A DNA stretch of 64,000 nt from Adineta ricciae. Taxonomy: Eukaryota > Rotifera > Eurotatoria > Adinetida > Adinetidae. Made by a program: the position numbers and the translations under genes. The first letter of the stretch is position 1. Every line of letters starts with the position of its first letter. The DNA lies in the NCBI GenBank assembly GCA_905250025.1, contig CAJNOJ010000369.1:1-64000 (forward strand). Direction: 5' to 3'. Below, piece by piece: positions 5,471-25,574 of this stretch. Below the pieces are notes generated by a model that had not been told where the DNA came from, did no database searches, and saw only the letters and a program-made list of their open reading frames with translations.

Positions 5471-5558
5471 GCGATAGTTACCTTTTCTTATCATTCGTTT
5501 AGAAGCCAAACAAGGTGTGCATTTATATTAGTGAAAAGAAACACTATCGACCATCATA
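5471..5558 (+). promoter_or_regulatory. upstream region of carboxylesterase 1, duplicated before carboxylesterase 2
   Basis: About 88 bp before the ATG at 5559 are almost identical to the sequence before carboxylesterase 2 (7470-7560), including a TATA-like atttatatta about 30 bp before the start codon. Conservation stops abruptly upstream, so this marks the left boundary of the tandem duplication and probably holds the core promoter. Confidence 0.5.
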
Positions 5559-7337
5559 ATGATCTTGTTTTTCTTTTTCACTGTTCTACTACCAACTATT
5601 TTTGCTAATGAACCTGTCGTAGTTCATACTCAGTATGGTGACATATTAGGATATCAGACGAATCTATCTCGAGTATTCTATGGAATTCCCTTTGCTCAAC
5701 CACCTGTAGGCCCATTGAGGTAACGAACTGCACGAATGTTCTTGTTCATTTGTGTTTATTTGTGAATAGGTGGGAAGCACCTGTGCCGGTGGTCAGATGG
5801 GCTCCGAAAATGGTCAATGCTACACAACCACCATCTGCTTGTCCACAACCTCCTGTGCCACAATCAAAACGATTAGTAAGATATGCCAATCCACAAATTG
5901 TAAGTCGATGATCTGAAAAGAAAGCAGAGTTCTCATGTCATATACACTCTCATTTAGATGTCTGAAGACTGTCTTTATTTGAATATTTTTACACCATTAT
6001 CGAGTAACTTGTTATCGACGAATCCTCTTCCTGTGATGATTTTTATTCCTGGTGGTGATTTCCAATTTAATTCTGCTTCGGCCTCAGCCTATGAATCTGA
6101 GCACTTAGTCAATAACACAAATATTATTATTGCCCTAATCCAGCATCGATTAGGTCAGTTTGGTGCATTTCCGCACTGTTCATTTGAAGGGTTAATCTCA
6201 TTTCAGGTGTTCTTGGGTTCTTGGCAACCGGTAACGGTCCTAATGATATCAAGGGCAACTATGGAATACTCGATCAACGTCTGGCGATCGCTTGGGTGAA
6301 ACAGAATATTGATGCATTTGGAGGTGACCCTAATCAGATAACGCTATTCGGACAAAGTTCTGGTGCGCAGTCAACTGCTCTTCATTATGTGACAAAAGAG
6401 ATGCAATCATATTTTCAACGTGCAATCATTCAAAGTGCTCCGATGAATTTTCCATTCAAGTACTGTATAACGACATGAGTATAATGAAAATAATGATTTA
6501 TCTTTACTTGTCTGTAGAACATACTTGGAGAATGTACCCACCGTTGTCCTTCTCGCTGAGCAATTACATTGTTCTCCAAATGATTTCGCATGTTTTCGAG
6601 CTCGCTCAGCTGATGAAATTATCACTGCTCAGAATCAAGTAAACCAAAAACTAACTTCATTGGATCTTCTACTTCTTCTCGAACCATGGCTACCAGTTAT
6701 TGATAATGATATTGTTCATGGAACGCTTATTTCTACAATAAGGAATGTATCATTTCCACTCAAACCATTGATAATTGGTTCGTTAACTGACGAATGCTAT
6801 TATATGATCTATGGTGCATTAAAAAAGAATGTAACAGTGATTGAATATATGGCTATGGGCGTTGGTCTTTTTGGTGAAAAGGCCTTGAAAATTCTTGAAC
6901 ATTATCCACCTTTGCCTTCAGGTGATCAACGACCGAATATCGCCAAGATAGCGACAGAATGGATCTTCACTTGTTCAACTCGTGTTTTCGCTCGAAAAGC
7001 GGCCACATATTCCTATGTTTTCGGTTATCCTGATAATACACTCAATTCACTCAACTGCAAAGATCACGCTTGCCATGCAGATGAACTACCCTATATCTTT
7101 CAATCGTTTTGGGACCGGTTCACTGACGTTGGTCGATACATATCTCATGGAATGGCTACTTATTGGACAAACTATGCCAAGAGTGAAAATCCGAATGAAC
7201 CTTCGAGTGTGCCTGTATCGTGGCCAAAGTACACAAGTGGAAACGAAACGTACATGTACATTCAAAATCCTTTTCAAGTGGGACAAAGCTATGTGAAAAG
7301 TGATTGTGATTTATGGGATGAAATCGGTTACAAATAA
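5559..7337 (+). CDS. secreted carboxylesterase 1 (type-B carboxylesterase/cholinesterase fold), 519 aa
   Basis: Five exons: 5559-5719, 5770-5899, 5958-6153, 6207-6459, 6518-7337, with introns of about 50-60 bp. A signal peptide (MILFFFF...IFANE) is followed by the type-B carboxylesterase hallmarks FYGIPFAQPPVG, EDCLYLNIF, the nucleophile elbow GQSSG (Ser near residue 213), an acidic residue in TDECYY and the His of CHADELPYIF, so the Ser-Glu-His triad is present. These alpha/beta hydrolases cleave carboxyl esters; here probably extracellular. Oddity: the oxyanion-hole HGG is PGG (FIPGGDF), while copies 2 and 3 read FIHGGDF, which may impair or change catalysis. Exon 2 carries three extra codons compared with the paralogues. 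AATAAA occurs near 7374. It is the first of a tandem pair. Confidence 0.9.
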
Positions 7338-7469
7338 GACTGCATTTATATTTCACTGTAAACACCTTATTTCTAAATAAAGAAGACAATCGTTTTTCAG
7401 TACACATTCGTATTTCGTATCAAAAGACTATCTGCTTTCCCTCAACCCATGTGCGTATATCTGAGCGAC

Positions 7470-7560
7470 TGCGCGATAGTTACCTTTTCTTATCATTCGT
7501 TTAGAAGCCAAGCAAGGTGTGCATTTATATTAGTGAAAAGAAACGCTATCGACCATCATA
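7470..7560 (+). promoter_or_regulatory. upstream region of carboxylesterase 2
   Basis: Near-identical to 5471-5558, including the TATA-like atttatatt about 30 bp before the ATG at 7561. Confidence 0.5.
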
Positions 7561-9326
7561 ATGATCTTGTTTTTCTTTCTCACTGTTCTACTACCAACTA
7601 TTTTTGCTAATGAACCTGTCGTTGTTCATACTCAGTATGGTGACATATTAGGATATCAGACGAATCTATCTCGAGTATTCTATGGAATTCCCTTTGCTCA
7701 ACCACCTGTAGGCCCATTGAGGTAACGAACTGTACGAATATTCTTGTTCATTTGTGTTTATTTGTGAATAGGTGGGAAGCACCTGTGCCAGTGGTCAGAT
7801 GGGCTCCGAAAATGGTCAATGCTACACAACCACCATCTGCCTGTCCACGACCAAAGCGCACAACGCGTTCTACCACTCGCACTCCATTTGGGGTGAGTCT
7901 TTGATACGAAAACCGATGAACAAATCTCTTATTGTAAATTATAGATGTCAGAAGATTGTCTTTATTTGAATATTTTCACGCCGTTATCAGGTGACGTACC
8001 GTCGACAGATCTTCTTCCCGTGATGCTTTTTATTCACGGTGGTGATTTCCAATTTGGCGCTGCAACAGAGTCAATGTATAAATCTGAACTCTTAGTAAAT
8101 AACACAAATATTATTATTGCCTTAATTCAATATCGTCTAGGTAAAATTCATTCTTTTCATCGGTAACTGACGCTTTATGTGATATGTTTGTAGGTGTTCT
8201 GGGATTCTTGGCAACCGGCAATAATCCGAATGACATCAAGGGCAACTATGGAATACTCGATCAACGTTTGGCGATCGCCTGGGTGAAAAACAACATCAAC
8301 GCATTCGGCGGGGATCCCAATCAGATCACACTATTCGGTCAAAGTGCTGGCGCACAATCAACTGCTCTTCATTATGTAACTAAAGATATGCAACCATATT
8401 TTCAACGTGCAATCATTCAAAGTTCTCCACTGACTATACCATTCAGGTACAAGAAGAAAAGTTGAAATGATATATATACTTGATTGGTATTTAGAACATA
8501 TTTGGAAAATATTACGCCAACTGTTCTTCTCGCTGAACAGTTACTCTGCTCTCCGAATAACCTATCGTGTTTTCGAACTCGTTCAACTGATGAAATTACT
8601 GCTGCTCAAGCTATAGTGAATAAAAAAATTACTTCATTGAACGCACTGTTCTTTTTCGAACCATGGCTACCAGTTATTGATAATGAGATTGTTCATGGCT
8701 CATTAATGAGCATGATTCAGAATGCATCATTCTCACTTAAACCATTGGTGATTGGTACAGTGACTGAAGAATGTTATGATTTCGTTTATACTACATGGCA
8801 CAAAAATGTGACAATCAGTGAATATATAGCCTTTGCGGTTGGCCTTTTCGGTGAAAAATCGTTGAAAGTTCTCGAGCATTATCCACCAACTGCTTCAGTT
8901 GATCAACGGCCGACTCTCGTTCGTATGGCAACACATTGGGTCTTTTCTTGTTCAACTCGTGTTCTTGCTCGAAAAGCAGCCACATATTCCTATGTTTTTG
9001 GTTATCCTTATAATACACTCAATTCACTCAACTGCAAAGATCACGCTTGCCATGCAGATGAACTACCCTATATCTTTCAATCGTTTTGGGACCGGTTCAC
9101 TGACGTTGGTCGATACATATCTCATGGAATGGCTACTTATTGGACAAACTATGCCAAGAGTGAAAATCCGAATGAACCTTCGAGTGTGCCTGTATCGTGG
9201 CCAAAGTACACAAGTGGGAACGAAACGTACGTGTATATTCAAAATCCTTTTCAAGTGGAAGAAAATTACTTGAAAGATGATTGTGATTTATGGGATCAAA
9301 TCGGTTATAAAGCAAGCGTGATTTGA
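7561..9326 (+). CDS. secreted carboxylesterase 2, 520 aa
   Basis: Exons 7561-7721, 7772-7892, 7945-8140, 8194-8446 and 8495-9326, at the same positions and phases as carboxylesterase 1. Signal peptide, intact oxyanion segment HGGDF, nucleophile elbow GQSAG, acidic residue in TEECYD and His in CHADELPYIF are all present, so an active secreted esterase is expected; the substrate cannot be told. Exon 1 and about 208 bp of exon 5 (9010-9217) match copy 1 almost or exactly, while most of exons 3-5 resembles copy 3 at 20471-22175 instead, a patchwork suggesting gene conversion. Downstream follows a decayed ADP-ribosyltransferase, the same order as after copy 3. Confidence 0.9.
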
Positions 9327-9420
9327 ATGAAACAACAACTTATTGCCGTATTTTTCCTTCTGCAGAGTATTATTTTTAAGAGCCGATTGAAGTAAAAGAA
9401 AGCATAAGTTGGTGTTACCG

Positions 9421-10275
9421 CCTAGATGCACCGTCTTCCTCGTTTTTTTGCGCAGCGAGAATCAACAAAAATTGACGAGAAAAAAAGAGAATGGTTTATT
9501 TTGTATTCTGATACTTTTTTTCAACGAGAACATCTGCATCAATGCAATCTCTCTACAGCTAAAAGAATGGTTACTTCTGCTGATCAAGAAGGATTATCGC
9601 GGAATATGGCTGTATCGATGCTTATCACAATTCACTCTCAATTACACCGAGTAGAAAGTCTTGATGAAGCTGTTCAGGAAGCCAGAAGTCATTACAAAAA
9701 GAGATCCGGGGTAGGTGAGGTAGATGACGATGTGACCAAACAGTACCAAAAAAGAACACCGTTTGTTGGTGGCAGTTCACTTCTTGTACGATCCAGATTT
9801 CAGCAACACGAGCTTTTCTTCGCGACAAGAAAAAGGCCACGATCTTTATGAATGAATGTCTTACGAGTAGAAATGTCGTTGAATATTCACATATGCCTAA
9901 AGACGACGAACTTATTCGCTTATACCTCGGATCAAACTAGAAGTGGTAGATAATGTTTTCTCTCATTTCGATGAGAATTGTGCATTTCAACATCTCAATT
10001 ATCTTCATAGTTAGGAGCTAAATATTTGAAAGAATGTTAATTATAAACTCAGATCAAAAACCACTTGTTGCAACTATCGAAAAGAATTCTAACATTTAAA
10101 CTGTCCCTATTGCTTCAGAGCAATTTCTTGAAAAAAAACCATTATAAGGAAGGTCAACGAGTCACAGGTTCGAATCGTTCGCATTGCGATGTCGAGAACT
10201 TCTGCAAAACCGCTAGCATTTCTTCGAATACTCGAGTGGACTCTTATGCGTGTTCAAAAATATTTTGAATCATAC
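9421..10275 (+). pseudogene. decayed ADP-ribosyltransferase with zinc-ribbon tail
   Basis: Fragments in shifting frames resemble ART proteins: DEAVQEARSHYKKRSG followed by VDDDVTKQYQK near 9660-9750, then, best read in the sister copy, CWWQFTSCTT (the Ser-Thr strand), then MNECLTSRNVVEYSHMPKDDE near 9850-9910, matching the MIECLNGKNISKYSS region of the intact gene at 10619. Further on (10060-10265) come broken zinc-ribbon pieces (CCNYRKEF-like, HLNCPYC-like). Several stops and frameshifts interrupt it. The sequence differs from the intact neighbour throughout, so this is an older, separate ART copy, also preserved after carboxylesterase 3 (22260-23380). Confidence 0.7.
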
Positions 10276-10618: not shown

Positions 10619-12322
10619 ATGACACAACGAATTGTCTACGATGACGTTGCGAATGAATATCTCCAAGTCGAAAATGGTGTTGACGGCTTTCTGAATTCAC
10701 CTCTGGTGTCTTTCGACGACGCAATCCTTCCTATGGTGAAACATATTGAAAACCTTGACATCGCCGTCCACCGAGCGAAGCAGAACTGGAATAAAACATC
10801 GTCTCGTCTGAATGCTGACGAATGTCAAGCTATTTATTTGTATACAATAGAAATGCAGACCGATAGTGTCTACACTATTATTAATCGATATCTCCGCGCT
10901 AATGATACATTTCCAGCCCGACCTTGGTTTCCATATATGAAATTGTTATACACCGCTTTAGAAAAGCTCCCATCACACGTTGGCTCAGTTTGGCGAGGAG
11001 TCAATCGGGACATAAGAGTAAACTATAAGAGAGGAGCAATCATTTCCTGGTGGGCGTTCACTTCCTGCACAGCCAAACTTGCTGTCATTAAAGATTTCCT
11101 CGCTGACAAAGGAAAAAGCACAATTTTTATGATCGAATGTCTTAATGGGAAAAACATTTCGAAATATTCAAGTATTTCGAGAGAAGATGAAATTCTGTTG
11201 CAACCTGGAATCAAGTTGGAGGTTGTCGATAATGCACTGGATTTGAGTGGACTACGTATCGTACACTTGAGGGAAATCGCTACGAAGTCTCGGGCTATGA
11301 CAGCTCACAAGCAGACTTCATCTAAAACAGCAGCAGTGTCAACGGATAAACATAAAATACAAAAGGAGATAGCGAATCAGTGCTCGAGCAACAAAGCAGC
11401 TGTACCGAAGGCAATACGTACGTTTTCACAAGCGAATGAGAATGATTATAACCGACTGAAATCGCTTCTTTTTTATGGTTTAGATACAGAGAGAACGAAG
11501 ACATCTTGTCCACATTGTTCAACAAAGATAGATTTATCACCGGAGTACAAAGAAGGTACCCAACTCGTTTGTCATTCATGCAAGAAGACATTCATCGAAT
11601 TAACCTGTGTTCATTGCAATGAGCTTAACTCATGGAAACATCCGCATCGAAGGGAAGGTGAAGTACGCACTTGTTGGAATTGTAAAAAACAGTTTCAATA
11701 TCTCAACTGTCCACATTGTACAGCCCCGTACATCTGGAAACGTGCCAATTATGTACAGGGTCAGAAGGTATCATGCTGGAATTGCAGAAAGCAATATCAG
11801 CATCTCAACTGTCCTAATTGTTCGCATGCGAATTTCTCTACTGCAGCAGATTATACAGAAGGACAAAAAATCGGATGTGCCGCTTGTAAGAAACCATTTC
11901 AACACATTAACTGCCCGCATTGTACGAAAGAAAACTTCTGGAAGAACGCAGACCGTGTGGTGGGTGTCAAAACGCCCTGTTTTCATTGTGGAAAATCTTT
12001 TCAGGTTGTCAACTGCCCTCATTGTCAAAAGCCAAATCATTGGCGACAACTCGATTATAAGCAAGGATTGACGGTGACATGTTGTAATTGTCGAAAAAAA
12101 TTTCAGCATATCAATTGTCCACACTGCTTAACTGCGGCTTATTTTTCGAATACTGACAATGAACAGAGCCGTCTGTTTGCGTGTCGATCGTGTCAGCATC
12201 GTCTTCATCATGTCATTTGTCCGGATTGCAACTCGCAAAACTTTCTCCAATCAACAAGTCTCTTAGGATTGGCTTTTGTAACATGCGCTCATTGTTCATC
12301 CTCGTTTTTGAATACTTTTTAA
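10619..12322 (+). CDS. ADP-ribosyltransferase fused to eight zinc ribbons, 567 aa
   Basis: Single-exon gene. Residues ~1-222 form an arginine-type mono-ADP-ribosyltransferase domain with the R-S-E signature: VWRGV (Arg126), WWAFTSC (Ser149) and the E-x-E of REDEILLQPG (Glu189, Glu191), so NAD+-dependent transfer activity is plausible. Residues ~223-290 are a Ser/Lys-rich linker. From residue ~297 to the end are eight repeats of about 33 residues, each a CxxC...CxxC zinc ribbon with shared phrases such as QHLNCPHC; they could bind nucleic acid or protein. No signal peptide or membrane helix, so it acts inside the cell. ARTs are numerous in bdelloids; the ribbon tail is unusual. A diverged and interrupted copy lies at 23682-25574. 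The target is unknown. Confidence 0.88.
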   Translation: MTQRIVYDDVANEYLQVENGVDGFLNSPLVSFDDAILPMVKHIENLDIAVHRAKQNWNKTSSRLNADECQAIYLYTIEMQTDSVYTIINRYLRANDTFPARPWFPYMKLLYTALEKLPSHVGSVWRGVNRDIRVNYKRGAIISWWAFTSCTAKLAVIKDFLADKGKSTIFMIECLNGKNISKYSSISREDEILLQPGIKLEVVDNALDLSGLRIVHLREIATKSRAMTAHKQTSSKTAAVSTDKHKIQKEIANQCSSNKAAVPKAIRTFSQANENDYNRLKSLLFYGLDTERTKTSCPHCSTKIDLSPEYKEGTQLVCHSCKKTFIELTCVHCNELNSWKHPHRREGEVRTCWNCKKQFQYLNCPHCTAPYIWKRANYVQGQKVSCWNCRKQYQHLNCPNCSHANFSTAADYTEGQKIGCAACKKPFQHINCPHCTKENFWKNADRVVGVKTPCFHCGKSFQVVNCPHCQKPNHWRQLDYKQGLTVTCCNCRKKFQHINCPHCLTAAYFSNTDNEQSRLFACRSCQHRLHHVICPDCNSQNFLQSTSLLGLAFVTCAHCSSSFLNTF

Positions 12323-12577
12323 AATTAGAACTAAATATCCTCGAGAAAATTTATTCATTAGTATCTCGCTTCGCCCACTTTTTCATTTTATCCTCAAAAA
12401 TAGATCAAAGTAAACACAGCATGTCATTTACACACGTATGACCATAAAAATAAAGGATCTTTTAGCCATGAAATCCTAGCATGCGTTGCAATTAGTTCTT
12501 CCGGGTGAAATCGAATAAAGACGGCTGCCTTCATTCCATCATTTTCATTTGTATCAATTAGAAGAAAACTTCTCGCT

Positions 12578-13566
12578 ATGTCCTTATCATACATTGGCCA
12601 ACAATGTATAATCTATGGCGGATCAGTTTTCCTCATCGGCGGATTAATTGGTAATACAATTAATATACTCATATTTTCAAAAGTTCGCAAATATCGTCAA
12701 ACACCATGCACCTTTTATTTTCTCGTTGCTTCTATTGCCAATCTGATTTACATCTCATTTAACTTTACCACTCGTATCTACAGCAACATTATCGGATACG
12801 ATTTATCCAATCTATCGATAGCTTGGTGTAAAACTCGACAATTCCTCATCGTTGCATTCAGCATGATCACACTAACCAATTCTTGTTTAGCAACCATCGA
12901 TCAATTTTTAGCCACATCAAAACATGTCCATTTTCGAAGGCTCAGTAATATGAAATGGACATATCGGCTTATTACTTTTGTCATTCTTCTTTGGTTTCTT
13001 CATGCCATTCCATGCCTGATCTTCTACAATGTTCCATCCAGTACAAAAAAATGTGCGATCACTCATCCGATTTATGCAGTTTACAATCGCATCTATCTTC
13101 TCGGTTTACTTTGCCTAATGCCAATAATGGTCACAACAATATTTGGATGTTTGACTTACTATAACATTCGTACAACACGCGGTCTTGCCGGACAAAATGT
13201 GGATCGTCAATTGGTAAAAATGACTTTACTTCAAGTGTTTCTGATCGTTCTCAGTCTGGCACCGTATGGTTTGCTGAGTATTTATAGTTTAATAACCGAA
13301 AATTTCGTTAAAGACTCCAATCGATTAGCACAAGAAAATTTTGTGCTGACAATTTTTACTTTAATGACCTATTCGTATTATTCGGTAAGTTCTTTCTTAT
13401 TTGACACGATTTTCTGAGCCAGTATGCATTCTAGGGTAATTGTTATATGTTCTGGTTTTCTTCAAGTCAATTTCGACGACGAGTTAAACGTGTAATTTTA
13501 CTTTGGCGAACAAATCATCAAATAGTTCCATCGGATGTTCGCGGATCAAAGATAGTTACACGGTGA
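12578..13566 (+). CDS. rhodopsin-like G protein-coupled receptor (GPCR-a), 312 aa
   Basis: Two exons, 12578-13384 and 13435-13566, joined in phase 0 inside TM7. Seven hydrophobic helices are visible. Landmarks are IGNTINILIFS in TM1 (the GN motif), Cys of IAWCKTRQF before TM3, ATIDQFLATS at the end of TM3 in place of DRY, and a basic C-terminal tail (FRRRVKR). A single-exon frame would stop shortly after the donor; splicing adds GNCYMFWFSSSQF, which completes TM7, and the tail. This type belongs to large families of orphan peptide or chemosensory receptors in rotifers; the ligand is unknown. An allele-like copy is at 25831-26819. Confidence 0.88.
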
Positions 13567-14912: not shown

Positions 14913-15477
14913 AGGAATTTGAATGAAAGCGAATTGTAAAAATAGGGGTTTTGGTGACTAGGCAAAAGTAAATATCGTGTGTCACTTTGCATAATACTAG
15001 TTCGCATCTGATACCATTCTCGCACTGCATATAGCGCTGATCTGTCTATATCAGGGATGGGGAACGCTGCACGTTTTAAATTACATTTTCTAGCAGTTTC
15101 CCTGCATAGATCAATCACATTTATATGTTACGTTACAATTTTAAGCCAAAGTATTATGCGTTCCTCGTTCATGGAACGGGGGAATGGACAACTGTGCGTG
15201 AACAGTTTGATTATACTTGAAAAAACTCTATAAAATATACCTGGAAATATATTCCGTCCCTGAAAATGGAGCGGGGGGTACTCATACCCTCAAGATGAAA
15301 TTCCCTATTTCTATTATTCTGCTAGTGACAATTTTTTGACGATAATTATTTACCGTAATCGACTTGAGACCATCAAGATGCTTTACGTGGAAAATCTGCT
15401 TTTGATCTTTCGTTTCTGTACTTGATTGAACTACCTTCAAAATTGATACGTATTTCTTTGCCAGAAAGAGATTTCTC
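14913..15477. other. intergenic, duplicated at 28172-28685
   Basis: Non-coding. Copies in the two blocks differ by several insertions and deletions (for example around 15000 and 15240). No gene recognised. Confidence 0.4.
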
Positions 15478-15490
15478 TATATAAATATAC
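15478..15490 (+). promoter_or_regulatory. TATA box of GPCR-b
   Basis: TATATAAATATAC about 55 bp before the ATG at 15543; conserved before the copy at 28751. Confidence 0.55.
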
Positions 15491-15542
15491 AAAGGGGCAT
15501 TCTTATGAGCATTCGAATATTATTTACAATAGTTCATCGACC

Positions 15543-16571
15543 ATGTCCTTGCTATACATCAGTCAACAAACGACTATCTATGCTGGTTGCTCTCTCGCTT
15601 TCATTGGTATCCTTGGCAACTCAATGAATATTCTCGTCTTTTCAACTGTTCCATCCTATCGAACAACATCTTGTACGTTCTATTTTCTCATCAGTTCCAT
15701 CTTCAACATTGCATATATCGTCATCAATCTTATTTCACGCATCGTTAGTGCCGGATTCGGTATTGATCCTACACGAACATCTCTCGCATGGTGTAAAACA
15801 AGACAGTTCTGTCTATTCACACTCAGTTTGGTCACAATCACATGTTCATGTTTGGCAACCATCGATCAATACTTCGCATCATCACAGAATGTTCGAATTC
15901 GTCGTTGGAGTAACATTCGATGGGCTCGTCGAATCGTCGTCATTATCATTATTATCTGGTGTATTCATGGCATCCCACCTATCTTGTATTCCGATATCTC
16001 GCCTATAACAAAAGCCTGTGGAAATATGAATGCGAGATATGCTGACTACATTCCTTTCTATCTGTTGGGATTGATTTGTGCCATTCCCATCGTTGTAATG
16101 GTGACATTCGGATACCTCACTTATCGCAACATTCATCTCACTCGTGCTCTTGCAAGACAATACGCTGATCGACAACTGGTTCGAATGGTTCTCTTTCAGA
16201 TCATTCTTGTCATCATTAGCTTCGTTCCATATGGAACATACAGTGTGTATAGTTTGGTGACGACCGGAATGCCAAAAGATATTTATCGATTGTTGCAAGA
16301 AGCATTTGCGATAACAGTGCTTAGTCTTGTGCCTTATTTCTACTATTGTGTAAGTGAAAGCGTAAAGGAAGGAGAGAGTGATGAAGGATGTTTATTTGTT
16401 TAGGGAAGTTGTTATGCGTTTCTGATGTCGTCAAGTCGATTTCGTCGATCTGTTCGAAATCAAGTGTTATTCTGGCGAAGACCAACTCAAATCGACAAAA
16501 CGATACGACTAACAGCTACCGTTCACAGTTTAAGAAAAGTCGGTGTAGCTGCTCCAACTCATAATCAATAG
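15543..16571 (+). CDS. rhodopsin-like G protein-coupled receptor (GPCR-b), 324 aa
   Basis: Exons 15543-16349 and 16404-16571, phase 0, with a 54-bp intron in TM7. Seven helices, LGNSMNILVFS in TM1, a Cys in LAWCKTRQF, ATIDQYFASS in place of DRY, a second extracellular loop Cys (KACGN) and a basic tail FRRSVRNQ. It is a paralogue of GPCR-a but closest to GPCR-d at 33859. The coding exon, the intron and the start of exon 2 match GPCR-d almost base for base until about 16480, where the C-terminal tails become unrelated (RRPTQIDKT here against RRAGQVIPF there). AATAAA follows near 16580. Ligand unknown. Confidence 0.88.
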
Positions 16572-20469: not shown

Positions 20470-20470
20470 N
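20470..20470. other. single-base assembly gap (N)
   Basis: One N separates unique AT-rich sequence from a contig that begins inside exon 1 of carboxylesterase 3. The 5' end and signal peptide of that gene are missing exactly here. Confidence 0.9.
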
Positions 20471-22175
20471 CGTTGTTCACACTCAGTACGGTGACATATT
20501 AGGATATCAGACGAATCTATCTCGAGTGTTCTATGGAATTCCCTTTGCTCAACCACCTGTAGGCCCATTGAGGTAACGAACTACACGAATGTTCTTGTTC
20601 ACTTGTGTTTATGTGTGAATAGATGGGAAGCTCCTGTGCCGGTGGTCAGATGGGCTCCGAAAATGATCAATGCTACACAACCACCACCTGCTTGCCCACG
20701 ACCAAAGAGCACAACGCGCTCTACCACTCGCACTCCATTTGGGGTGAGTCTCTGATACGAAAACAAATGAGCAAATCTCTTATTATAAATTATAGATGTC
20801 AGAAGATTGTCTTTATTTGAATATTTTCACGCCGTTATCAGGTGACGTACCGTTGACAGATCTTCTTCCTGTGATGCTTTTTATTCACGGGGGTGATTTC
20901 CAATTTGGCGCTGCAACAGAGGCAATATATGAATCTGAACTCTTAGTAAATAACACAAATATTATTATTGCCTTAATTCAATATCGTCTAGGTAAAATTC
21001 GTTCTTTTCATCGGCAATTGACGTTTTATGCGATACGTTTGTAGGTGTTCTTGGCTTCTTAGCAACCGGCAATGGTCCGAATGACATTAAGGGCAACTAT
21101 GGAATACTCGATCAACGTTTGGCGATCGCCTGGGTCAAAAACAACATTAATGCATTCGGCGGGGATCCTAATCAGATCACACTATTCGGTCAAAGTGCTG
21201 GCGCACAATCAACTGCTCTTCACTATGTAACTAAAGATATGCAATCATATTTTCAACGGGCAATCATTCAAAGTTCTCCACTAACTATACCATTCAGGTA
21301 CAAGAATAAAAGTTGAAATCATATATATTTGATTGGCATTTAGAACATATTTGGAAAATATTACACCAACTGTTCTTCTCGCTGAACAGTTACTCTGTTC
21401 TCCGAATAACCTATCGTGTTTTCGAGCCCGTTCAACTGATGAAATTACTACTGCTCAAGCTATAGTGAATAAAAAGATTACTTCATTGAACGCGCTGTTT
21501 TTTTTCGAACCATGGCTACCAGTTATTGATAATGAGATTGTTCATGGCACATTAATGAACATAATTCCGAACGTATCATTCCCACTTAAACCATTGGTGA
21601 TTGGTACAGTGACTGAAGAATGTTATGATTTCGTTTATAGTACCTGGCACAAAAATGTGACAATCAGTGAATATATAGCCTTTACGGTTGGTCTTTTCGG
21701 TGAAAAATCGTTGAAAGTTCTCGAGCATTATCCACCAACTGCTTCAGTTGATCAACGTCCGACTCTCGTTCGTATGGCAACACATTGGGTCTTTTCCTGC
21801 TCAACTCGTGTTCTTGCTCGAAAAGCGGCCACCTATTCCTATGTTTTCGGTTATCCTGATAATCGAGTCAACTCGCTGAACTGCAAAGATCACGCTTGCC
21901 ATGCAGATGAACTACCCTATATCTTCCAATCGTTTTGGGATCGCTTCACTGACGTTGGTAGATATATATCTCATGGAATGGCTACTTATTGGACAAACTA
22001 TGCTAAGAGTGAAAATCCGAATGAACCTTCGAGTGTGCCCTTATCGTGGCCAAAGTTCGCTAGTGGCAACGAAACGTACATGTACATTCAAAATCCGTTT
22101 CAAGTGGAAGAAAATTACTTGAAAGATGATTGTGATTTATGGGATCAAATCGGTTATAAAGCAAGCGTGATTTGA
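20471..22175 (+). CDS. carboxylesterase 3, 5' end lost at gap
   Basis: Exons 20471-20572 (partial), 20623-20743, 20796-20991, 21045-21297 and 21344-22175 correspond one to one to carboxylesterases 1 and 2. The oxyanion segment HGGDF, nucleophile elbow GQSAG, acidic TEECYD and the catalytic His of CHADELPYIF are intact. It is nearer to copy 2 over most of its length, including the C-terminus KASVI, but lacks the tract shared by copies 1 and 2. Its position, ahead of an ART relic, ART, GPCR-a, type II protein and GPCR-b, makes it the counterpart of copy 2 in block A'. Truncation is due to the N, not to mutation. Confidence 0.85.
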
Positions 22176-22259
22176 ATCAAACAACAACTTATTGTTGTAT
22201 TTTTTTCTTCTGCAGAGTAATTTTTAAGAACCGATCGAAGTAAAAAAACAGCGTAAGTT

Positions 22260-23380
22260 GGTGTTACCACCTAAATGCAACATCTTCCTCGTTGTTTTGC
22301 GCAGTGAGAACCAATAAAAATTGACGAAAAAAAAAGAGAATGGTTTATTTTGTATTTTGATACTTTTTTCAACGAGAATATCTGCACCTATGCAATCCCT
22401 CTACGGCTAAAAGAATTGTTACTTCTGCTGATCAAGAAGGATTATCGTGGAATACGACGGTATCGATGCTTATCACAATTCACTCTCAATTACACTGAGT
22501 AGAAGGTCTTGATGAAGCTGTTCAGGAAGCTAGAAGTCACTACAAAAAGAGATCCGGGGTGGGTGAGGTAGATGACAATGTGACCAAACAGTACCAGAAA
22601 AAGAACACCGTTTGTTGGTGGCAGTTCACTTCTTGTACAACTTAAATTACAGCAACACAAGCTTTTCTTCGTGACAAGAAAAATGGCACAATCTTTATGA
22701 CTGAATGTCGTACGAGTAGAAATGTCGTTGAATATTCACGTATGCCTAAAGACGACGAGCTTATTCTCTTATACCTCGGATCAGACTAGAAGTGGTAGAC
22801 AATGTTTTCTCTCATTCCGATGAGAATTGTGCATTTGAAATACATAGAAATACTGTCAGCGGCTGTCTCGAAGGAGAGACTTTTCGGTGCCTACCATCAT
22901 GATTCATCGAAAATACAGAAATCATTCGGTAGAAAGCTACAAAAGAGAGAACATGCAGGATTTTATCATCTGAATGTTTCAGGTATACGAGCGAAGTGGC
23001 AATCTGTTGGTCTTGCAAACAAACATTTCAACATCGGAATTATCCTCATTGTGAGGAACTAAAAATATTTGGAAGAATGCTAATTATAAACTCGGATCAA
23101 AAATCACTTGTTGCAACTATCGAAAAGAATTCCAACATTTAAACTGTTCCTATTGCTCCAGAGCAATTTCTTGGAAAAAAGCGCATTGTAAAGAAGGTTA
23201 ACGAACCACACGTTCGAATTGTTCGTATTGTGATGTCGAGAACTTTTCCAAAATCGCTAGCATTTCTTCGAATACTCAAGTGGACTGTTGTGCATGTTCA
23301 AAAACATTTTGAAACAGACAGCAGGGTGAAGCTGAGCATGCGTTCTTTGTTGTTCTCCTCAAACTTCTAAAAAAATTAAT
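22260..23380 (+). pseudogene. decayed ADP-ribosyltransferase, second copy
   Basis: Matches 9421-10275 with further indels. In pieces one reads DEAVQEARSHYKKRSGVGE, KNTVCWWQFTSCTT, MTECRTSRNVVEYSRMPKDDE and a broken zinc-ribbon region near 23095-23300. Stops interrupt every frame. About 290 bp around 22800-23060 (a Lys/Arg-rich open stretch with KSFGRKLQKREHAGF) are present here but absent from the first copy. Confidence 0.7.
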
Positions 23381-23681: not shown

Positions 23682-25574
23682 ATGACACAACGAATTGTCT
23701 ACGATGACGTTGCGAATGAATATCTCCAAGTCGAAAATGGTGTTGACGGCTTTTTGAATTCACCTCTGGTGTCTTTCGATGACGCAATCCTTCCTATGGT
23801 GAAACATATTGAAAACCTTGACATCGCCGTCCACCGAGCGAAGCAGAACTGGAATAAAACATCGTCTCGTTTGAATGCTGACGAGTGTCAAGCTATTTAT
23901 TTGTATACAATAGAAATGTCGACCGATAGTGTCTACACTATTATTAATCGATATCTCCGCGCTAATGATACATTTCCAGCCCGACCTTGGTTTCCATATA
24001 TGAAATTATTATACACCGCTTTAGAAAAGCTCCCATCACACGTTGGCTCAGTTTGGCGAGGAGTCAACCGGGACATAAGAGGAAACTACAAAAGAGGAGC
24101 AATCATTTCTTGGTGGGCATTCACTTCCTGCACAGCCAAACTTGCTGTCATTAAAGATTTCCTCGCTGACAAAGGAAAAAGCACAATTTTTATGATCGAA
24201 TGTCTTAATGGGAAAAACATTTCGAAATATTCAAGTATTGGGACAGAAGATGAAATTCTGTTGCAACCTGGAATCAAGTTGGAGGTTGTCGATAATGCAT
24301 TGGATTTGAGTGGACTACGTATTGTACACTTGAGAGAAATCACTACGAAGTCTCGGGCTACGACAGCTCACAAGCAGACTTCATCTAAAACAGCGGCAGT
24401 GTCAACGGATAAACATAAAATACAAAAGGAGATATCGAATCAGTGCTCGAGCAACAAATCAGCCGTACCGAAGCCAATACGTACGTTTTCATCAGCGAAA
24501 GAGAACGATTATAACTGACTTAAATCGCTTCTTTTTTATGGTTTAGATACAGAGAGAACGAAGACATCTTGTCCACATTGTTCAACAAAGATAGATTTAT
24601 CCCCGGAGTACAAAGAAGGTACCCAACTCGTTTGTCATTCATGCAAGAAGACATTCATCGAATTAACTTGTGTTCATTGCAATGAGCTTAACTCATGGAA
24701 ACATCCGCATCGAAGGGAAGGTGAAGTACGCACTTGTTTGAATTGTAAAAAACAGTTTCAATATCTCAACTNNNNNNNNNNNNNNNNNNNNCCGGAGTAC
24801 AAAGAAGGTACCCAACTCGTTTGTCATTCATGCAAGAAGACATTCATCGAATTAACTTGTGTTCATTGCAATGAGCTTAACTCATGGAAACATCCGCATC
24901 GAAGGGAAGGTGAAGTACGCACTTGTTGGAATTGTAAAAAACAGTTTCAATATCTCAACTGTCCACATTGTACAGCCCCGTACGTCTGGAAACGCGCCAA
25001 TTATGTACAGGGTCAGAAGGTATCATGCTGGAATTGCAGAAAGCAATATCAGCATCTCAACTGTCCTAATTGTTCGCATGCAAATTTCTCTACTGCAGCA
25101 GATTATACAGAAGGACAAAAAATCGGATGTACCGCTTGTAAGAAACTATTTCAACACATTAACTGCCCGCATTGTACGAAAGAAAACTTCTGGAAGAACG
25201 CAGACCGTGTGGTGGGTGTCAAAACACCCTGCTATCATTGTGGAAAATCTTTTCAGGTTGTCAACTGCCCTCATTGTCAAAAGCCAAATCATTGGCGACA
25301 ACTCGATTATAAACAAGGATTGACAGTGACATGTTGTAATTGTCGAAGAAAATTCCAGCATATTAATTGTCCACACTGCTTAACTGCGGCTTATTTTTCG
25401 AACACTGACAATGAACAGAGCTGTCTGTTTACGTGTCGATCCTGTCAGCATCGTCTTCATCATGTCATTTGTCCGGATTGCAACTCGCAAAACTTTCTCC
25501 AATCAACAAGTCTCTTACGACTGGCTTTTGTGACATGCGCTCATTGTTCATCCTCGTTTTTGAATACTTTTTAA
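23682..25574 (+). pseudogene. ADP-ribosyltransferase-zinc ribbon gene, second copy, with premature stop and gap
   Basis: The ART domain (Arg126, Ser149 and E-x-E all kept; ILLQPG follows) is nearly identical to the gene at 10619. Codon 279 is TGA at 24516-24518 where the first copy has CGA (Arg), so the zinc ribbons would not be translated with the ART domain; the frame then continues open in the same phase to the same end point. A run of 20 Ns (24772-24791) falls in the second ribbon and the 169 bp before it are repeated after it with one difference seen. The product could be an ART domain alone, or the stop could be an allele. I treat it as an interrupted allele-like copy. Confidence 0.75.
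24772..24791. other. assembly gap of 20 N inside the zinc-ribbon region
   Basis: The sequence just before (24603-24771) and just after (24792-24960) the Ns is the same apart from one base change that makes Trp into Leu in the first. A fixed-length gap with overlapping ends suggests an unmerged contig junction rather than a real ribbon duplication. Confidence 0.85.

Follow-up and report, generated by a model that had tools for sequence, protein, structure and literature searches.

Introduction

Arginine-type ADP-ribosyltransferases (ARTs) of the family PF01129, such as rat ART2.2 and the bacterial enzymes Vis, HopU1 and the 6drh ART, carry an R-S-ExE motif on the ART fold; ART2.2, Vis and HopU1 modify arginine in proteins, and animal arginine ARTs are mostly regarded as surface enzymes. 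Q-x-E in place of E-x-E is the motif of the DNA-guanine ARTs of the pierisin/ScARP type. Here we analyzed a stretch of 64,000 nucleotides (the window) from the rotifer Adineta ricciae (contig CAJNOJ010000369.1 of assembly GCA_905250025.1, positions 1 to 64,000; C369:1-64000 below), in which a gene at positions 10619-12322 joins an ART domain to eight tandem zinc ribbons. The window protein has the R-S-ExE motif, the ART fold and the Pfam ART match in common with the PF01129 ARTs named above, and is unlike them in its eight-ribbon tail and in the absence of a hydrophobic leader. The closest known kinds of its ribbons are the Double zinc ribbon and other CxxC-CxxC beta-ribbons (Pfam DZR, Lar and Zn_ribbon_4), in comparison with which the rotifer arrays are regular and tandem, with 5 to about 15 units of 34-36 residues.

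Judged from the sequence, the fusion of ART and ribbons appears to be real and conserved; its parts are of known kinds, and their combination is apparently new. No ART joined to ribbons was found in the literature searched on rotifer or bdelloid ADP-ribosylation and on ARTs with zinc ribbons (titles and passages), and the fusion is not described in the portions covered of PMC3482391, PMC10809525, PMC12220480 and PMC9503650.

An ART domain followed by eight zinc ribbons

Reading-frame analysis of the window found 567 open codons at positions 10619-12322 of the forward strand, which are predicted to be divided as follows:

10619..11417, + strand: exon 1, ART domain with an N-terminal helical extension and a basic linker (R126, S149, E189-x-E191)
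11418..11483, + strand: predicted 66-nt phase-1 intron, GTACGT...TTTAG, stop-free in frame, with the same signal in relatives
11484..12322, + strand: exon 2, eight tandem CxxC/CxxC zinc ribbons (11507-12319) and the stop codon

Residues 54-224 (about 10778-11290) matched the Pfam ART family with 39.3 bits against a cut-off of 22.3, and in the alignment R126, S149, E189 and E191 occupied columns that are invariant with bacterial relatives. All four catalytic residues are kept in 84 of 84 bacterial relatives and in 41 of the 42 other ARTs of the rotifer's own genome that were compared. The intact R-S-E-x-E ART claimed in the original prediction, made from the letters of this stretch, was thus confirmed. 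Fold comparison assigned the domain to the NAD:arginine ART fold (PF01129), closest to, or tied closest with, that of the ecto-enzyme ART2.2; the solved ARTs nearest to it include ART2.2, Vis and HopU1, and these match lists do not exclude families outside them. At the position of the Q-x-E of DNA-guanine ARTs, E189-x-E191 was found instead. The top NCBIfam match of the window protein was XopAI (E 3.5e-7, 29.7 bits against a cut-off of 300), no uracil-DNA glycosylase (UDG) domain was found in Pfam or NCBIfam scans of the protein, and PADLOC gave no match among the four proteins scanned. By hydropathy only, the N-terminus is not hydrophobic (highest 11-residue mean of 0.78 within the first 30 residues), in agreement with the claim that a secretion signal is lacking, and no strong membrane segment was found, the highest 19-residue Kyte-Doolittle mean being 1.34 at residue 546, near the C-terminus.

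The tail contains 16 CxxC pairs (residues 297-559), whose spacing of 22+12 yields eight ribbons of 34 residues, the first one of 33, with two CxxC knuckles in each of the eight units. None of 20,000 shuffles of the tail reached 16 CxxC (maximum 13). The eight CxxC/CxxC units and the long tail of the original prediction therefore stand, at 271 residues, and only the unit length of about 33 residues has to be corrected. The tail has a net charge of +17 and includes 33 cysteines among its 271 residues; every one of the seven ribbon arrays measured was basic (net +7 to +39). The array consensus is CPHC...W...Y..G...C..CKK.FQ..N, and of 32 ribbons compared, 27 had G at position 18, 26 had W or F at position 10, 22 had Y at position 15 and 28 had Q at position 31. 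When the tail was scanned alone (238 residues, ribbon 2 onward), it exceeded the Pfam cut-offs of both DZR (30.5 versus 27.3) and Lar (35.6 versus 28.6); in the full-length scan Lar scored 18.8, under its cut-off of 28.6.

These features are consistent with a reading that we hold as tentative yet quite possible, namely that the gene is in use and spliced, and encodes an intracellular arginine-type mono-ADP-ribosyltransferase whose ribbon array docks at nucleic acid or nucleoprotein. Exon 1 would provide NAD+-dependent arginine-type mono-ADP-ribosyltransferase activity inside the cell, and the eight basic beta-ribbons of exon 2, if they bind zinc as predicted, would form a multivalent docking module that binds nucleic acid (RNA, DNA) or nucleoprotein and steers the enzyme there. 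The enzyme would then modify arginines of the proteins bound there and, less likely, the nucleic acid itself. An intracellular location is suggested because there is no hydrophobic leader and CxxC ribbons suit a reducing compartment; arginines of nearby proteins are the acceptors that we would favor, in view of the E-x-E motif and of the arginine modification known from several of the nearest solved relatives; and the array may be a multivalent binder, since it is basic and repeats one surface many times.

The ART-ribbon family in the rotifer genome

We searched the genome (130.5 Mb in 1033 contigs) with the ribbon tail and obtained 35 matches, which lie on C369 (two genes and two decayed copies), C346 (two), C365 (two places), C634, C36 (two), C53 and C45, and at broken places on C456, C688 and C478. 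The C634 protein aligns with the window protein over the full length at 37% identity and shares all 32 cysteines of the 16 pairs. The top PDB match of a glutamate-receptor frame in this genome was AvGluR1 (E 2e-74, against 2e-41 for the second), a receptor of the bdelloid Adineta vaga, in support of a bdelloid source. For the C346 ribbons, the best match in C365 was at equal rank for 11 of the 13 compared, and the last fits the last; ribbon 12 fits rank 12 and rank 14 about equally well, there being a repeat next to an assembly N. The window ribbons were best matched at equal rank in two of eight cases against C634, and in one of eight each against C346 and C365, with ribbon 1 among them each time.

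An ART tree was computed from 68 domains, comprising 20 of the 84 bacterial relatives, six ribbon ARTs and 42 other own-genome ARTs, after eight own-genome rows had been dropped (seven low-scoring and one duplicate of C634). The six ribbon ARTs, which represent three diverged lineages, fell on one branch with a support of 92/69, under the program's star level. The catalytic residues are complete in five of them, and the sixth (C365) is interrupted by N, with E-Q-E in its second half. Because the six share one branch, the fusion most simply arose once and was then kept; together with a shared phase-1 intron (see below), the three lineages bear out the claim that it is a lineage trait and not a one-off. 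The genome contains at least 150 ART matches of one subfamily (150 scored among 306-553 first-look candidates), so the expansion of this subfamily is very large, and the window gene would be one specialised branch of it. A conserved ribbon-bearing branch within such an expansion would offer a testable ART with a built-in targeting device.

Bacterial relatives of the rotifer ARTs

A tblastn search of the whole protein against 72,556 plasmid records gave four ART-only matches, all actinobacterial, with 32-34% identity and E values down to 1e-33; against 50,697 phage records, 16 showed weak ART-only matches. One actinobacterial match, 33% identical over residues 10-244 (E 1e-33), includes the N-terminal extension. 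We then compiled 84 bacterial relatives, consisting of the best 80 of 135 confirmed relatives from a bacterial and archaeal scan with the ART as query (one genome per species) and the four plasmid records:

L050-L133, e.g. L052:2039-4660: bacterial UDG-ART loci, nearly all actinobacterial

The GQxPYP motif of a UDG-like domain was found in the same frame as the ART in 83 of these 84; for the 84th, from Planctomycetota, the second half of the UDG-like domain was recognized by eye, and the first half is not in that frame. In the copies read the motif is GQNPYP, presumably with Asn where Ung has Asp. One such bacterial protein matched uracil-DNA glycosylase in NCBIfam with E 3e-20, and its N-terminus matched ADP-ribose-binding proteins, both under the curated cut-offs, and in the same protein Pfam Macro was above its cut-off. 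A Macro-like motif stands in front of the UDG-ART in 19 of the 84, and none of the 84 contains three or more CxxC. The actinobacterial UDG-ART and Macro-UDG-ART proteins are 32-37% identical to the window protein over the ART, many with the N-terminal extension (up to residues 10-244); they carry the UDG-like domain before the ART and no ribbons. Among sampled genomes, matches were obtained in 5 of 396 Actinomycetota (three at E below 1e-34; the sample includes the centre genome) and in 2 of 199 Planctomycetota (one strong, the centre genome itself). No title on UDG-ART proteins appeared in a literature search on UDG and ART. The bacterial UDG-ART protein, which is widespread, looks like a candidate DNA-linked ADP-ribosylation system, and this link would make an action of the rotifer ARTs at DNA or RNA directly testable.

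Many other rotifer ARTs are about as close to a bacterial ART as the window gene is, and the bacterial link therefore concerns the whole rotifer ART family. In a tree of rotifer and bacterial ARTs only, the two groups separate with full support, which gives neither direction nor timing. The ribbon tail matched six phage records, only at E 8, and one plasmid record weakly (24% identity, E 2e-3). In viral contigs, none of 54 stretches was confirmed for the ribbon pattern, nor any of the 38 and 36 stretches for the fusion and ART alignments, respectively. The ribbon profile, compared with three bacterial genomes, had matches at E ≤ 10 in one of them (best E 1.7e-4 over 33 positions).

What the ribbon array may bind

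The original prediction had proposed that the enzyme may be delivered to nucleic acid or a large complex; for nucleic acid, our analysis is suggestive only. In its favor, the arrays are basic, and the closest ARTs outside the rotifer are fused to a UDG-like domain. Several points weigh against it, however. A basic charge is common, the ligands of zinc ribbons are varied, and among the nearest solved ARTs several (ART2.2, Vis and HopU1) are enzymes that modify protein arginine. In the full-length Pfam scan DZR stays under its cut-off (24.1 versus 27.3). Modelling of the ribbons, as originally proposed, did not pick a ligand class: a two-ribbon model fits, weakly and with no preference, zinc ribbons from carrier, ribosomal, RNA-polymerase and ubiquitin-ligase proteins, and neither the fold search nor the sequence search of the ribbons singled one out (top match of the ribbon profile among PDB sequences, 2nb9, E 0.018). 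As for the ART, the fold matches obtained do not exclude families outside their list. Moreover, Pfam lists no UDG domain in three bacterial proteins scanned, and the UDG fusion is a trait of the bacterial relatives of the entire rotifer ART family, so that it is little informative on the ribbon branch.

The array might instead bind protein, such as a ubiquitin-like modifier, a ubiquitin-ligase-like partner or a large complex, and aim the same ART at complexes free of nucleic acid. The fits of the two-ribbon model include ubiquitin-ligase proteins, and the basic charge of all the arrays measured is a feature that speaks for nucleic acid; we regard this alternative as rather doubtful.

A decidedly unlikely explanation is that the cysteine-rich tail does not serve targeting but mainly senses zinc or redox state and thereby switches the ART in oxidative or desiccation stress. 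Its 33 cysteines among 271 residues would suit such a role, as would the enrichment of ADP-ribosylation among genes of A. vaga over-expressed on desiccation and on rehydration, which is given at the level of a Gene Ontology (GO) class (PMC10809525). However, ADP-ribosylation was enriched among under-expressed genes in space-flown A. vaga (PMC12220480), and ART-ribbon genes are named in neither source in the portions covered. Furthermore, conservation of the ribbons extends to the non-cysteine positions 10, 15, 18 and 31, at the frequencies given above. Docking at nucleic acid or nucleoprotein remains our preferred, tentative reading of the array.

Second copy, selection and decayed relatives

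The window contains a second copy of the gene (23682-25571), about 97% identical to the first, and decayed relatives upstream of both copies:

23682..24480, + strand: exon 1 of the second copy (97% identical ART)
24481..24546, + strand: intron of the second copy, with an in-frame TGA inside
24547..25571, + strand: exon 2 of the second copy, to the last codon; 20 N at 24772-24791 with repeated flanks
9761..10274, + strand: decayed ART-ribbon relative (ART piece 9761-9988, ribbon pieces 9985-10274), with stops and frame changes
22568..23348, + strand: decayed relative 5' of the second copy (ART piece 22568-22957, ribbon pieces 22981-23348)

We compared the two copies by the NG86 method and obtained nonsynonymous (dN) and synonymous (dS) rates of 0.018 and 0.090 for exon 1 (ART; dN/dS 0.20) and of 0.014 and 0.090 for the ribbons (seven of the eight units compared; dN/dS 0.16), a comparison that is valid whether the copies are alleles or duplicates. 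Changed bases in amino-acid-changing codons numbered 11 against 15 synonymous ones in the ART and 8 against 12 in the ribbons. This suggests purifying selection on both the ART and the ribbon parts. By YN00 the value for the ribbons was milder (0.018/0.047, dN/dS 0.38), which weighs against a gene in use.

The possibility that the gene is decaying, out of use and intact by chance can be viewed in this light. The decayed relative with a ribbon tail that had been noted just upstream is indeed present, as a broken ART followed by ribbon pieces with stops and frame changes, the ribbon places on C456, C688 and C478 are broken, and the YN00 ratio points the same way. The NG86 ratios in both parts, the excess of synonymous changes and the intact catalytic residues argue against decay, however, and we consider it very unlikely.

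The segment 20471-29073 is 92-97% like a stretch 13 kb upstream in the parts compared. A genuine 13-kb tandem duplication is doubtful, as a single N stands on either side of the second segment (20470 and 29074), which may have entered the scaffold as an allele or haplotig. An extra ribbon in the second copy was rejected, since an assembly gap with repeated flanks (the 20 N at 24772-24791) lies there. Assembly Ns in the window are at 20470, 24772-24791, 29074 and 38236, and others occur in L040 and L041.

A shared predicted intron between the ART and the ribbons

A GT-AG intron of phase 1 lies directly 5' of the first ribbon in C346 (two copies), C365 and C634. In the window gene, the stretch at the same place and in the same phase is 66 nt long and stop-free, so that the frame reads through it. 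Between the window copies 6 of its 66 sites differ, compared with 46 of 1513 exon sites (Fisher test, P = 0.019); this divergence is near the NG86 synonymous rate of 0.090, as an intron should behave. There is very probably, therefore, a 66-nt intron just before ribbon 1 that is open by chance in the window copy. With this intron spliced out, the mature protein is predicted to have 545 rather than 567 amino acids. The reading frame predicts that the window gene places ART and ribbons on one protein whether it is spliced or read through; the second copy would be fused only if spliced, because a TGA lies in its intron stretch.

It is highly improbable that the ART and the ribbons are two separate genes merged by a chance-open spacer. 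The ART frame does stop before the ribbons in the second copy, in both copies on C346 and in C365; however, each such stop sits inside a GT-AG intron of equal phase and place, C634 and the window copy are open even unspliced, and exon 2 of the window gene has no ATG ahead of ribbon 1. Because of the shared phase-1 intron and the gene family, we reject both this explanation and that of a one-off frame. Least credible is an enzyme that, like vertebrate ART1-ART5, is secreted or sits at the cell surface, with its ribbons extracellular, as the fold closest to, or tied with, ecto-enzyme ART2.2 would allow, given an N-terminus that is not hydrophobic (by hydropathy only) and the fact that CxxC zinc ribbons are unusual outside the cell.

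A second domain with the same ribbon array

The ribbon array is also joined to a domain of about 200 residues with a Y-H-G-T motif (YHGT domain), on C36 (twice, one crossed by assembly N) and on C53:

L045:3012-4451, + strand: ribbon array and YHGT domain
L044:2654-4357, - strand: ribbon array and YHGT domain
L044:4936-6443, - strand: ribbon array and YHGT domain

The genome gave 39 match rows to this domain, some being pieces of one gene; those coinciding with ribbon matches are on C36 and C53 only, and the surroundings of the other rows were not retrieved. On C45, ribbons were found with no ART or YHGT domain within the 8-kb stretch examined. The YHGT domain had no Pfam match and no PDB sequence match, and one copy of it had no match among the plasmid records. 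Its Y-H-G-T, with a later aromatic residue and Glu, is in our reading reminiscent of the PARP-like H-Y-E class; for PARP-like toxins, the motif is listed as HG[ST], Y and E in the portion covered of PMC3482391. The same array beside a second, different domain would provide a natural comparison for the ART-ribbon proteins.

A broader scenario, which we consider speculative and unlikely, would be that bdelloids acquired, or share with actinobacteria, a UDG/Macro-linked ART, that this ART expanded to more than 100 genes, and that one branch swapped its DNA-reading partner for basic ribbons, an array that also serves a PARP-like family, giving an animal a modular ADP-ribosylation system that is directed at nucleic acid and possibly modifies RNA or DNA itself.

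Neighbouring genes

Tandem carboxylesterase-like genes with introns adjoin the ART genes at 5500-9330 and 20471-22840 of the window (by eye and by repeats). Seven-helix-receptor-like genes were recognized by eye at 12509-13417, 15447-16403, 28.7-34.5 kb and 54.6-56.8 kb, and a six-copy repeat family covers several of them.
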